Part shown: positions 25,187 to 31,784 of the stretch, piece after piece
How positions within the stretch are numbered: position 1 is the stretch's first letter
Layout: the number at the start of each line of letters is the position of its first letter
NCBI GenBank assembly: GCA_026225295.1
Contig: JAMFSN010000040.1
Span: 1 to 33,814, forward strand
Length of the DNA stretch: 33,814 nt
Source of the DNA: Frankia alni
GTDB taxonomy: Bacteria > Actinomycetota > Actinomycetes > Frankiales > Frankiaceae
Direction: 5' to 3'
Notes under the pieces: model-generated
Database searches by the model: none
Seen by the model: the letters and a program-made list of their open reading frames with translations, nothing else
Told to the model about the DNA's origin: nothing
Made by a program: the position numbers and the translations under genes

Positions 25187-25777
25187 ATGGCCATTCACCG
25201 TCCGACCGCTCCCACCTCCGCCCACCCGGAGATCGCCGAAATTCCCGGCTCAATGATCACCGCGAACGCGTCGAAGGCGCTCGCTGTTCTGCGACTCGCC
25301 ACCGGTTTCGTCTTTCTCTGGGCATTCCTCGACAAGACGTTCGGGCTGAACTACACGACGAGCTCGGCCAAGGCCTGGATTCACGGCGGATCACCGACCA
25401 AGGGTTTCCTGTCCTCGGTCGCGGTCGGCCCCTTCCAGTCGGTGTTCCACACCATGGCCGGCACCTGGTACGCCAACTGGCTGTTCATGCTGGGCATGCT
25501 CGGGATCGGGGTCGCCCTGATCGCCGGGGTCGCGGTCCGCATCGCGGCTGCGTCCGGTGTCCTGATCATGGCGATGATGTGGTTCGCGGAATTCCCGTTC
25601 GCTCAACACACGAGCGCCGGCGCGGCCAGCGGTTCGACGAACCCGCTGACCGACTACCACTTCATCTACGCCGCCGTCCTCGTCGTGCTCGCGGCAACGT
25701 TTGCCGGCAGTACCTGGGGACTGGGCCGGTACTGGGCGCGGCTGCCGTTCGTCCACCGGCACCGCTGGGCCCTCTGA
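25187..25777 (+). CDS. DoxX family membrane protein
   Basis: 196 residues from ATG 25187, with AGGAGG 8 bases upstream. Four membrane segments: LAVLRLATGFVFLWAFLDK, then ANWLFMLGMLGIGVALIAGV, AAASGVLIMAMMWFAEFPF and FIYAAVLVVLAATFAG. The layout, the R-x-A-x-G-F-x-F-L-W-A-F-L-D-K opening and the NPLTDYHFIYA motif match DoxX/DoxD-like proteins, related to thiosulfate:quinone oxidoreductase subunits. In actinobacteria such proteins are linked to redox or oxidative stress. It ends before a strong hairpin (25809-25836), so it is probably monocistronic, and a DosR-like box lies upstream. Confidence 0.9.
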   Translation: MAIHRPTAPTSAHPEIAEIPGSMITANASKALAVLRLATGFVFLWAFLDKTFGLNYTTSSAKAWIHGGSPTKGFLSSVAVGPFQSVFHTMAGTWYANWLFMLGMLGIGVALIAGVAVRIAAASGVLIMAMMWFAEFPFAQHTSAGAASGSTNPLTDYHFIYAAVLVVLAATFAGSTWGLGRYWARLPFVHRHRWAL

Positions 25778-25808: not shown

Positions 25809-25836
25809 GGGGCCGTGAGCGCAGGCTCACGGCCCC
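25809..25836 (+). terminator. Strong perfect 12-bp hairpin after doxX
   Basis: GGGGCCGTGAGC (25809-25820) and GCTCACGGCCCC (25825-25836) pair perfectly over a 4-base loop, 31 bases after the DoxX stop. No clear U-run follows, as is usual for GC-rich actinobacterial terminators. It separates doxX from the ECF41 promoter, which begins 23 bases further on. Confidence 0.75.
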
Positions 25837-25858: not shown

Positions 25859-25885
25859 TGTCACAACCCGGCCGGCCGCGTCGTC
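25859..25885 (+). promoter_or_regulatory. Candidate ECF41-type autoregulated promoter
   Basis: TGTCACA (25859-25865) and CGTC (25882-25885) are separated by 16 bases. This is the published ECF41 target-promoter form (TGTCACA-N-CGTC). It sits 62 bases before the GTG start of an ECF41 sigma factor gene. ECF41 factors commonly control their own promoters, so self-activation is likely. Confidence 0.7.
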
Positions 25886-25946
25886 CTATCGGCAGCCGCG
25901 GTCTTCCCGCGTCAGTCTTGCTGGAGCCGACCGCAGGGAGCAGTCC

Positions 25947-26861
25947 GTGGATGCCTCGACCGCCGCCACCGAGTTCGAAGGACACCGCGCCCATCTGCTC
26001 GGCGTCGCCTACCGGATGCTCGGCACCCGGACGGACGCCGAGGATGCGGTGCAGGAGGCGTATCTGCGGTTCGCCCGCGCGACCGACCCCGGTCCCCGGG
26101 ACCCGCGGGCCTGGCTGACCACGGTCGTCGCGCGGATCTGCCTCGACGAGCTGGGCTCGGCCCGGGCCCGCCGCGAGAACTATGTCGGCCCGTGGTTGCC
26201 GGAGCCGCTCGTGGACGCACCCCGGGATTTCGCCGTCGCGGCCCTGGGCCCCGACCCGGAGGACCGGGTGACATTGGATGAGTCGGTCAGCCTGGCCATG
26301 CTGGTGGTGCTCGAATCGCTCAGCCCCGCCGAGCGGACCGCCTTCGTCCTGCACGACGTGCTCGGCCTGCCCTACGGCGAGATTTCGACGGTCGTCGGCC
26401 GGGGCGAGGCGGCCTGCCGGCAACTCGTCGCCCGGGCCCGCGCCCACGCCCACGAGCGCGCCCCCCGCTTCACCGCCGACCGCGCCCAGCACGCCGGAGC
26501 GGTGACGGCCTTCCTGACCGCCTGCTCCCACGGCAGTGTCGAGGAGCTGGTCCGCGTCCTCGATCCCGCCGCCGTCCTGCGTTCCGACGGCGGCGGCCTG
26601 GTACCGGGGGTCGCGCGGCGGCCGGTCACCGGCCCCGACAACATCGCCCGACTGCTGCTCGGGGTCGCGGCGAAACACGACGCGATCCCCTACCTCCACC
26701 CGGTCAACGACGCGACCGGCCTGGTGTTCGAGGCCGGCGGCACGGTCGTCGGGGTGATGGCCTTCGCCGTGGCCGGCACCCTGATCACCGAGATCGACTT
26801 CGTGGTCAACCCCGAGAAACTGCGCGGGGTCACCCGCCGCCGGTCAGGAGAATCCGCATGA
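25947..26861 (+). CDS. ECF41 family RNA polymerase sigma factor with SnoaL-like C-terminal domain
   Basis: 304 residues from GTG 25947 (GGGAG 7 bases upstream). Sigma2 (about 10-75) includes LLGVAYRMLGTRTDAEDAVQ and YLRFAR. Sigma4 (about 115-165) includes LSPAERTAFVLHDVLGLPYG then EISTVVGRGEAACRQLVARA. A SnoaL-like extension (about 180-290) carries the DGGG motif (214-217) and NPEKL (288-292), the two regulatory motifs that define ECF41. In this group the C-terminal domain takes the place of an anti-sigma factor. The known partners (carboxymuconolactone decarboxylase, oxidoreductase or epimerase) are not adjacent; instead an alpha/beta hydrolase is coupled by a 4-base ATGA overlap. Confidence 0.93.
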   Translation: MDASTAATEFEGHRAHLLGVAYRMLGTRTDAEDAVQEAYLRFARATDPGPRDPRAWLTTVVARICLDELGSARARRENYVGPWLPEPLVDAPRDFAVAALGPDPEDRVTLDESVSLAMLVVLESLSPAERTAFVLHDVLGLPYGEISTVVGRGEAACRQLVARARAHAHERAPRFTADRAQHAGAVTAFLTACSHGSVEELVRVLDPAAVLRSDGGGLVPGVARRPVTGPDNIARLLLGVAAKHDAIPYLHPVNDATGLVFEAGGTVVGVMAFAVAGTLITEIDFVVNPEKLRGVTRRRSGESA

Positions 26862-27706
26862 CCGACGATCACCCGGGCCTGGCGTTCACCCGGACCGGCA
26901 CCGGCCGGCCGCTGGTTCTGCTGCATGGCATCGGGTCGTCGCGCGGGATTTGGGATCCCGTGCTCCCGGCCCTCGCCGAACACTTCGACGTCATCGCCGT
27001 GGACCTGCCCGGATTCGGCGACTCCACGGCCCTGCCCACCCCGATCGAGCCGGTGCCGGCCGCGCTCGCCGGGACGGTCGCCGGGCTGCTCGACCAGCTC
27101 GGGGTGGTGGAACCGCACGTCGCCGGGAACTCCCTGGGCGGCTGGGTGGCCCTCGAACTGGCCGCGCTACGTCCGACCGCGTCGGTGGCCCTGCTGTCCC
27201 CGGCCGGGTTCTGGCGCGCGGCCGCCCCGCGGTACTGCCGGGCCAGCCTGCGGGCCTCGCGGTGGCTCACCACGCACGCCACCGGTCTGCTCCTGCGCCT
27301 GGTCAGTAATCGTCCGGGGCGCCTGCTCGTCCTCGGCCAGACCCACGCGCGGCCGGCCCGGATGACCGCCGAGCACGCCCGCTCGATCATCCAGGCCATG
27401 GCCAGCGGCCCCGGCTTCGACGCCACGTTGAGGGCCACCGCCACCCGCCGGTACCGCTCCGGACCGCCGATCGACGCCCCGGTGACGGTCGCCTTCGGCT
27501 CCCGCGATCGGCTGCTGCTGCGGCGCCAGTCCCGCCACCTCGATCAACTTCCCCCGGCCACCCGACGCGCCTCGCTGCCCGGCTGCGGCCACGTCCCCAT
27601 GACCGACAACCCCGCCGCCGTCACCGCCCTGATCACCGCCTCCGCGCGCGGCACCGGGCCGATCACCGGGGCGGCTGATCGCACCGCGACCGAACGCCAC
27701 AGGTAG
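26858..27706 (+). CDS. Alpha/beta hydrolase, coupled to ECF41 sigma factor
   Basis: 282 residues. The start ATG overlaps the sigma factor stop (ATGA). Alpha/beta hydrolase motifs are complete: LLHGIGSSRGIW (oxyanion hole), DLPGFGDS, GNSLGGWVALEL (nucleophile Ser), FGSRDRLLL (acid) and GCGHVPMTDNP (His). The cap is Arg-rich and helical. The family includes esterases, epoxide hydrolases and meta-cleavage-product hydrolases, and the substrate cannot be assigned. Coupling to an ECF41 factor suggests it is the output enzyme of that stress circuit, which is an inference. Confidence 0.9.
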   Translation: MTDDHPGLAFTRTGTGRPLVLLHGIGSSRGIWDPVLPALAEHFDVIAVDLPGFGDSTALPTPIEPVPAALAGTVAGLLDQLGVVEPHVAGNSLGGWVALELAALRPTASVALLSPAGFWRAAAPRYCRASLRASRWLTTHATGLLLRLVSNRPGRLLVLGQTHARPARMTAEHARSIIQAMASGPGFDATLRATATRRYRSGPPIDAPVTVAFGSRDRLLLRRQSRHLDQLPPATRRASLPGCGHVPMTDNPAAVTALITASARGTGPITGAADRTATERHR

Positions 27707-30935: not shown

Positions 30936-31784
30936 GTGACTGGAATGAAGCGCGCCACGCGGTTGGCGGCCCTCACGGTCGTGGCGGTCGCCTGCCTGTC
31001 GGCGGCCACGATCGCGAGCGCTACCGCGTCCGCGACGCGGTCCGGGCGGTCGACGGCGTCCCCCCCGGCCGGCCCGGCGACGACCACGGTCAACGATTTC
31101 ACCTGCCGGCCGACGCGCGCTCACCCCTACCCGGTCGTTCTGGTCCACGGGACCCTCGAGGACATGTCGATGTGGGCCGGCCTCGAACCCTCGCTGACCG
31201 CCCAGGGCTACTGCGTTTTCGCGCTGAACTACGGCAACAACGGGACCGGCGACATCGCCACCTCCGCCGGCCAGCTCGGCACGTTCGTCGACCAGGTGAC
31301 CGGCGCGACCCACGCCCGCCGGGTCGATCTCGTCGGCCATTCCCAGGGCGGAATGATGCCGCGCTATTACCTCAGGTTCCTGGGTGGGGCCGGTAAGGTG
31401 CATCAACTCATCGGGCTCGCACCGTCGAACTACGGAACCACCTTGAGCGGCCTGGACACTTTGACCGGCTGCGTGGCGTGCCAGGAACAGGCTCAGGGGT
31501 CGGATTTCCTGAACACTCTCAATGCGGGCTGGGACACCGTGCCCGGCGTCTTCTTCACGGTGATCGCGACGAACAAGGACGAAATTGTCACGCCGTACAC
31601 GAACACGTTCCTGCACGGTCCCGGGGCATGGAACATCGTCATCCAGAAGATCTGCCCGGCGGACGCGTCCGGGCATGTCAACCTGGCGACCAGCGACGAG
31701 AATGCCTGGCAGCTGGTCCGCGACGCGCTGGACCCCCGGCACGCCCGACCGGTGCACTGCGTCCCGGCGACCAACGCGACCTGA
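30936..31784 (+). CDS. Secreted lipase/esterase (class 2 lipase-like)
   Basis: 282 residues from GTG 30936, with ATG 30945 as an alternative start. A signal peptide is clear: basic MKRATR, the hydrophobic LAALTVVAVACLSAATIASA and a Ser/Ala/Thr-rich linker. The mature alpha/beta hydrolase domain has VVLVHGTLEDMSMW, nucleophile GHSQGGMMPRYYL, DTVPGVFFTVIATNKDEIVTP (acid region) and SGHVNLA (His). Pairs of Cys (GCVAC, IC, HC) suggest disulfides in an exported enzyme. The family hydrolyses extracellular esters or triacylglycerols. It ends before a strong bidirectional hairpin shared with the convergent SDR gene. Confidence 0.9.
   Translation: MTGMKRATRLAALTVVAVACLSAATIASATASATRSGRSTASPPAGPATTTVNDFTCRPTRAHPYPVVLVHGTLEDMSMWAGLEPSLTAQGYCVFALNYGNNGTGDIATSAGQLGTFVDQVTGATHARRVDLVGHSQGGMMPRYYLRFLGGAGKVHQLIGLAPSNYGTTLSGLDTLTGCVACQEQAQGSDFLNTLNAGWDTVPGVFFTVIATNKDEIVTPYTNTFLHGPGAWNIVIQKICPADASGHVNLATSDENAWQLVRDALDPRHARPVHCVPATNAT

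Follow-up and report, generated by a model that had tools for sequence, protein, structure and literature searches.

A sigma factor and hydrolase gene pair in Frankia alni as a probable variant of the ECF41 regulatory circuit

Background

Can an alpha/beta hydrolase take the place of the usual partner enzyme in an ECF41 sigma factor circuit? The question is raised by a locus in a 33,814-nucleotide stretch of Frankia alni DNA (contig JAMFSN010000040.1 of assembly GCA_026225295.1; hereafter the window), in which an ECF41-type sigma factor gene overlaps a hydrolase gene. The classical ECF41 partner or target classes are three, namely carboxymuconolactone decarboxylase, oxidoreductase and epimerase. 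About 30% of ECF41 genes are orphans with miscellaneous neighbors, and ECF41 sigma factors have been reported to control just one linked gene or operon. In the Ecf41Bli-YdfG circuit of Bacillus licheniformis and the Ecf41Rsp-RSP_0606 circuit of Rhodobacter sphaeroides, as in the window, the sigma factor has a fused C-terminal regulatory domain and a WLPEP linker motif, the promoter reads TGTCACA-N16-CGTC, no anti-sigma gene is present and a single enzyme gene is adjacent; their partner is a carboxymuconolactone decarboxylase, whereas that of the window is a predicted serine-type alpha/beta hydrolase (PMC3426412).

Results

The sigma factor gene occupies 25947-26861 of the forward strand, with a GTG start, a stop at 26859-26861 and a ribosome-binding site (AGGGAG, 25935-25940, same strand) before it, and encodes 304 residues. 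Its only Pfam domains are Sigma70_r2 (PF04542, residues 11-73) and Sigma70_r4_2 (PF08281, residues 117-167), with no sigma3 domain. The sigma2-sigma4 linker contains WLPEP (26193-26207, forward strand; WLPEPL at residue 83), which was almost invariant in an alignment of 54 homologues. The protein has the C-terminal extension of ECF41 proteins (about 100 residues or more, with the motifs DGGG and NPDKL and a SnoaL/NTF2-like fold): DGGG lies in the SnoaL-like domain at 26586-26597 (residues 214-217) and NPEKL near the C-terminus at 26808-26822 (residues 288-292), both on the forward strand. The sequence scores 308.3 bits against the NCBIfam SigJ subfamily NF007214, for which the curated cut-off is 271. 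An AlphaFold model built from the 54 homologues (mean pLDDT 84) matched the SigJ structure 5xe7 first, along its full length, and SigG1 7qh5 next in structure comparison, and its C-terminal part matched NTF2/ketosteroid-isomerase folds. SigJ of Mycobacterium tuberculosis, with about 36% identity and a shared SnoaL-like domain, is also the best solved-structure match by sequence (E 3e-47). The ECF56 factor SigG1 of Streptomyces tsukubaensis, known as part of the SigG1-RsfG system (PMC7730460), likewise combines sigma2-sigma4 with a SnoaL-like domain but belongs to another ECF group and is 26% identical. No anti-sigma gene lies beside the sigma factor gene; the neighbors are a DoxX-like gene, the hydrolase gene and genes for two proteins without a Pfam match. 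The window protein is an ECF41/SigJ sigma factor and displays every testable ECF41 sequence feature of PMC3426412.

Upstream of it, an ECF41-type -35 element (TGTCACA, 25859-25865) and -10 element (CGTC, 25882-25885) are separated by a 16-base spacer on the forward strand, and both are kept in relatives. The pattern by which an ECF41 promoter is recognized, TGTCACA-N16±1-CGTC before a sigma or partner gene, is thus present at 25859-25885, in a form identical to the consensus mapped in PMC3426412. It is the sole exact match in the window, against 0.08 expected from shuffles of the whole window, and its chance rate is about 1.4e-4 per 150-bp stretch of this composition. Further upstream, a perfect 12-bp inverted repeat, GGGGCCGTGAGC-GCAG-GCTCACGGCCCC (25809-25836, forward strand), lies between the promoter and the DoxX-like membrane protein gene (25187-25777, a weak DoxX match), and this hairpin sets the sigma-hydrolase unit apart from that gene. 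The repeat probably ends upstream transcription; it was missing from the terminator-scan list because it has no T-run. The DoxX-like gene was not found at the loci of relatives.

The hydrolase gene (26858-27706, forward strand; 282 residues) begins with an ATG at 26858 that overlaps the sigma stop codon as ATGA, and its product belongs to the Pfam families Abhydrolase_1/6 (PF00561/PF12697). Ser92 in a GxSxG motif, Asp217 and His245 make up the nucleophile, acid and histidine of a serine-type enzyme and are invariant in 27 homologues. Among solved folds, the model of the protein (pLDDT 92) came closest to esterases and after them to PlaF, a phospholipase, and to epoxide hydrolases, with identities of 20-27%. 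Epoxide hydrolases use an aspartate nucleophile, and epoxide-hydrolase chemistry is disfavored here because the nucleophile is a serine; the protein is predicted to be a serine esterase-type enzyme. The nearest solved relatives by both sequence and fold are a Thermogutta esterase (4uhc) and PlaF (6i8w), the substrates of which are not transferable to the window protein because identity is 24-25%. Identity as PcaD (3-oxoadipate enol-lactonase) was rejected at 82 bits against a cut-off of 255.85. Elsewhere in the window, 30936-31784 encodes a probable secreted lipase (Lipase_2, E 5e-17).

These results agree with a preliminary description of the locus in its assignment of the sigma factor to ECF41, for which Pfam, the NF007214 score, the motifs and the SigJ-like model all speak, in the positions of DGGG and NPEKL, and in the ATGA-coupled alpha/beta hydrolase; WLPEP is a third ECF41 signature to add to the two motifs listed there. 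The TGTCACA-N16-CGTC promoter does lie upstream of the sigma gene as described, at a distance of 61 bases from the GTG and not 62, and the interval originally delimited (25859-26861) takes in the promoter and sigma gene but omits the hydrolase gene.

Conservation of the pair was followed with a hydrolase profile searched against 341 Streptosporangiaceae genomes. Ten matches scored at least 413 bits and one contig-end fragment scored 281 bits, with the next match at 251 bits, which places the hydrolase clade in 12 genomes, namely that of the window and 11 of the 341. An ECF41 sigma gene is adjacent in 10 of the 12, window included: six loci have the sigma gene first (the window, L055/L189, L176/L193 of Nonomuraea gerenzanensis, L188, L191 and L192) and four the hydrolase gene first (L185, L186, L187 and L194). 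In Nonomuraea sp. PA05 (L055), identified by searching a set with a single genome for each species, the sigma factor is 73% and the hydrolase 66% identical to those of the window; the order is the same, the genes are 12 bases apart and the promoter reads TGTCACG-N16-CGTC. The remaining two hydrolases are that of L190 (genome G448, 74% complete), which stands alone with its promoter and no adjacent sigma gene, and that of L195, where the locus is interrupted by a contig end. A further locus, L135 (G272:C54, 1462-2481), is a decayed unit with an intact promoter, in which the sigma factor is without residues 1-50 and the hydrolase is reduced to its C-terminal part (about 195 residues missing); an assembly fault is possible there. 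Flanking genes of the window unit are not common to the loci of relatives while the sigma and hydrolase genes are, mostly over 1.5 kb of compared flank. Eleven of the 12 genomes belong to one family, which leaves a small number of independent events, with two sigma lineages involved. Judged from its recurrence in sequence, the pairing of an ECF41 sigma factor with this hydrolase is very likely real.

Upstream regions were readable at 12 loci (the ten pairs, L190 and L135), and TGTCAC-N16/17-CGTC preceded the first gene in all 12, with a single mismatch in one (L176, CGTCACA in place of TGTCACA). Only GTCAC and CGTC were invariant in the aligned regions. The promoter stands directly before the hydrolase gene in five loci. 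Its spacing to the gene varies, from 61 bases in the window to 8 in Nonomuraea and the hydrolase-first loci: in L055, L191, L192, L176, L185-L187 and L194 the distance from the end of CGTC to the ATG is 8 bases, which predicts leaderless mRNAs, and leaders are present in the window, L188 and L190. Of the related hydrolases that fall outside the clade, 28 distinct ones were compared, and none had an ECF41 promoter upstream in the correct orientation. Sister hydrolases with 41-47% identity (L199-L203, L205, L206, L210-L212) often lie directly 3' of an ECF sigma gene, the product of which has no ECF41 extension and is SigE-like by eye; these weak sigma matches were rejected as ECF41 pairs, as they lack both the ECF41 extension and the ECF41 promoter. 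The hydrolase family may be tied more broadly to ECF sigma factors.

Phylogenetic trees placed the hydrolases of both gene orders in a single clade (support 97/95). The sigma factors of the sigma-first and hydrolase-first loci were each monophyletic and were placed apart among ECF41 proteins, in a tree that covers a sample of ECF41 loci, and a single clade for both sets was rejected (AU p 0.0012). Because one hydrolase clade accompanies two separate sigma lineages, the hydrolase was either joined to both of these ECF41 lineages or moved from one to the other. This pattern is the strongest argument against chance adjacency.

No stand-alone hydrolase of this clade's kind was adjacent to the sigma gene in about 110 other ECF41 loci, where the neighbors were CMD, NAD-binding/epimerase, FAD or zinc oxidoreductase and miscellaneous genes. 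Hydrolase-like genes presumably also lie beside sigI of M. tuberculosis. Other Abhydrolase_1 neighbors of the sampled loci are apparently prolyl oligopeptidases (Peptidase_S9) of Microbacterium and were set aside as a different family. In Microbacterium L065, L067, L070 and L071, the ECF41 gene is followed by a long gene (about 700 aa), which in L065 encodes a member of Peptidase_S9, a prolyl oligopeptidase that may be another non-COE partner. The Lentzea ECF41 loci L077, L089, L095, L100 and L104 have alike neighborhoods; in L100 a Dioxygenase_C-type protein is encoded just 3' of the ECF41 gene, and four downstream neighbors in the sample match that family. A hydrolase partner is absent from the text of PMC3426412, although the 6% of loci that it leaves "ungrouped" could include such cases. 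In the ECF41 literature searched, a hydrolase and a sigma factor were mentioned together only in a general review; the 2021 ECF reclassification lay outside that search, and hydrolase neighbors may have been described earlier, for example there.

The scan of the genome for other TGTCACA-N16-CGTC promoters proposed in the preliminary description yielded one further intergenic site, before an epimerase gene. In all, six exact TGTCACA-N15..17-CGTC matches were found: that of the window, four inside coding sequence and the intergenic one (L016, G000:C282:3612-3638, minus strand), about 46 bases before a gene for a NAD-dependent epimerase (Epimerase, E 1e-27). No ECF41 gene lies beside this epimerase gene, which is likely a target in trans, judging by its promoter. 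The genome encodes two more ECF41 paralogues, L002, which is convergent with a CMD gene and is without WLPEP, and L003, which adjoins another ECF sigma gene; within the stretch read, an exact promoter is lacking at both. The three ECF41 paralogues of the genome could share the promoter of the window unit.

Discussion

We consider it quite probable that the two genes form an autoregulated ECF41 circuit with the hydrolase as output. A cytoplasmic small molecule would act on the C-terminal SnoaL-like domain and release the sigma factor, the holoenzyme of which would read TGTCACA-N16-CGTC at 25859-25885 and transcribe both the sigma and hydrolase genes. The hydrolase would thus replace the usual decarboxylase, oxidoreductase or epimerase, and the window sigma factor or one of its two paralogues may also drive the unlinked epimerase gene with the same promoter. 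Autoregulation and control through the C-terminal domain are inferred for the window protein by analogy with characterized ECF41 members (PMC3426412, PMC8999054), for which activation of the sigma factor's promoter, and higher activity upon partial C-terminal truncation, are hallmarks assayed with reporters (PMC3426412). With a PF00561/PF12697 hydrolase set against the three classical target classes, the window supports the earlier proposal of a new partner type, as a variant of the known ECF41 circuit: the pair is kept in other genomes, in two orders and with two sigma lineages, and the promoter stands before the first gene.

The hydrolase could also take part in sensing, in which case it would make or destroy the ligand bound by the SnoaL-like domain and thereby set sigma activity. 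A ligand common to enzyme and sensor would lead one to expect that one hydrolase clade joins two ECF41 lineages, as seen here, and the fold of the domain is that of small-molecule-binding proteins; however, the B. licheniformis partner enzyme YdfG left sigma activity unchanged (PMC3426412), and G448 has no linked sigma gene but still carries the promoter and the hydrolase, and a sensing role seems unlikely. We give a similarly small chance to the fuller version, that two ECF41 lineages independently captured one hydrolase clade, the substrate or product of which is the SnoaL-like domain ligand, in a metabolite feedback loop.

It is also conceivable that a paralogous ECF41 sigma factor, from L002 or L003, drives the promoter, and that the linked sigma factor is itself an output or serves other promoters. 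The lack of an exact promoter of their own at both paralogues in the stretch read and the same promoter at the unlinked epimerase gene fit this arrangement, but this promoter is present in all genomes found to carry the sigma-first lineage, and L002 is without WLPEP and beside its own CMD gene, which makes it distinctly improbable. Chance adjacency to a hydrolase of independent housekeeping metabolism, conceivable given the abundance of alpha/beta hydrolases and the miscellaneous neighbors of orphan ECF41 genes, is very hard to reconcile with a pairing that recurs in ten genomes and two gene orders, a promoter directly before the hydrolase gene, the ATGA overlap in the window and flanking genes that, unlike the pair, are not shared among relatives.

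Conclusions

The association of a further enzyme class with two lineages of sigma factor, under conserved promoter elements, would mean that the ECF41 sigma-promoter module controls different enzymes. The ECF41 papers drawn on here name no natural signal for these sigma factors. The hydrolase offers an assayable handle, in that its substrates could be screened in vitro and the substrate or product then taken as candidate ligands of the SnoaL-like domain. The metabolite feedback loop, if true, would be a pointer to the natural signal for the ECF41 group.
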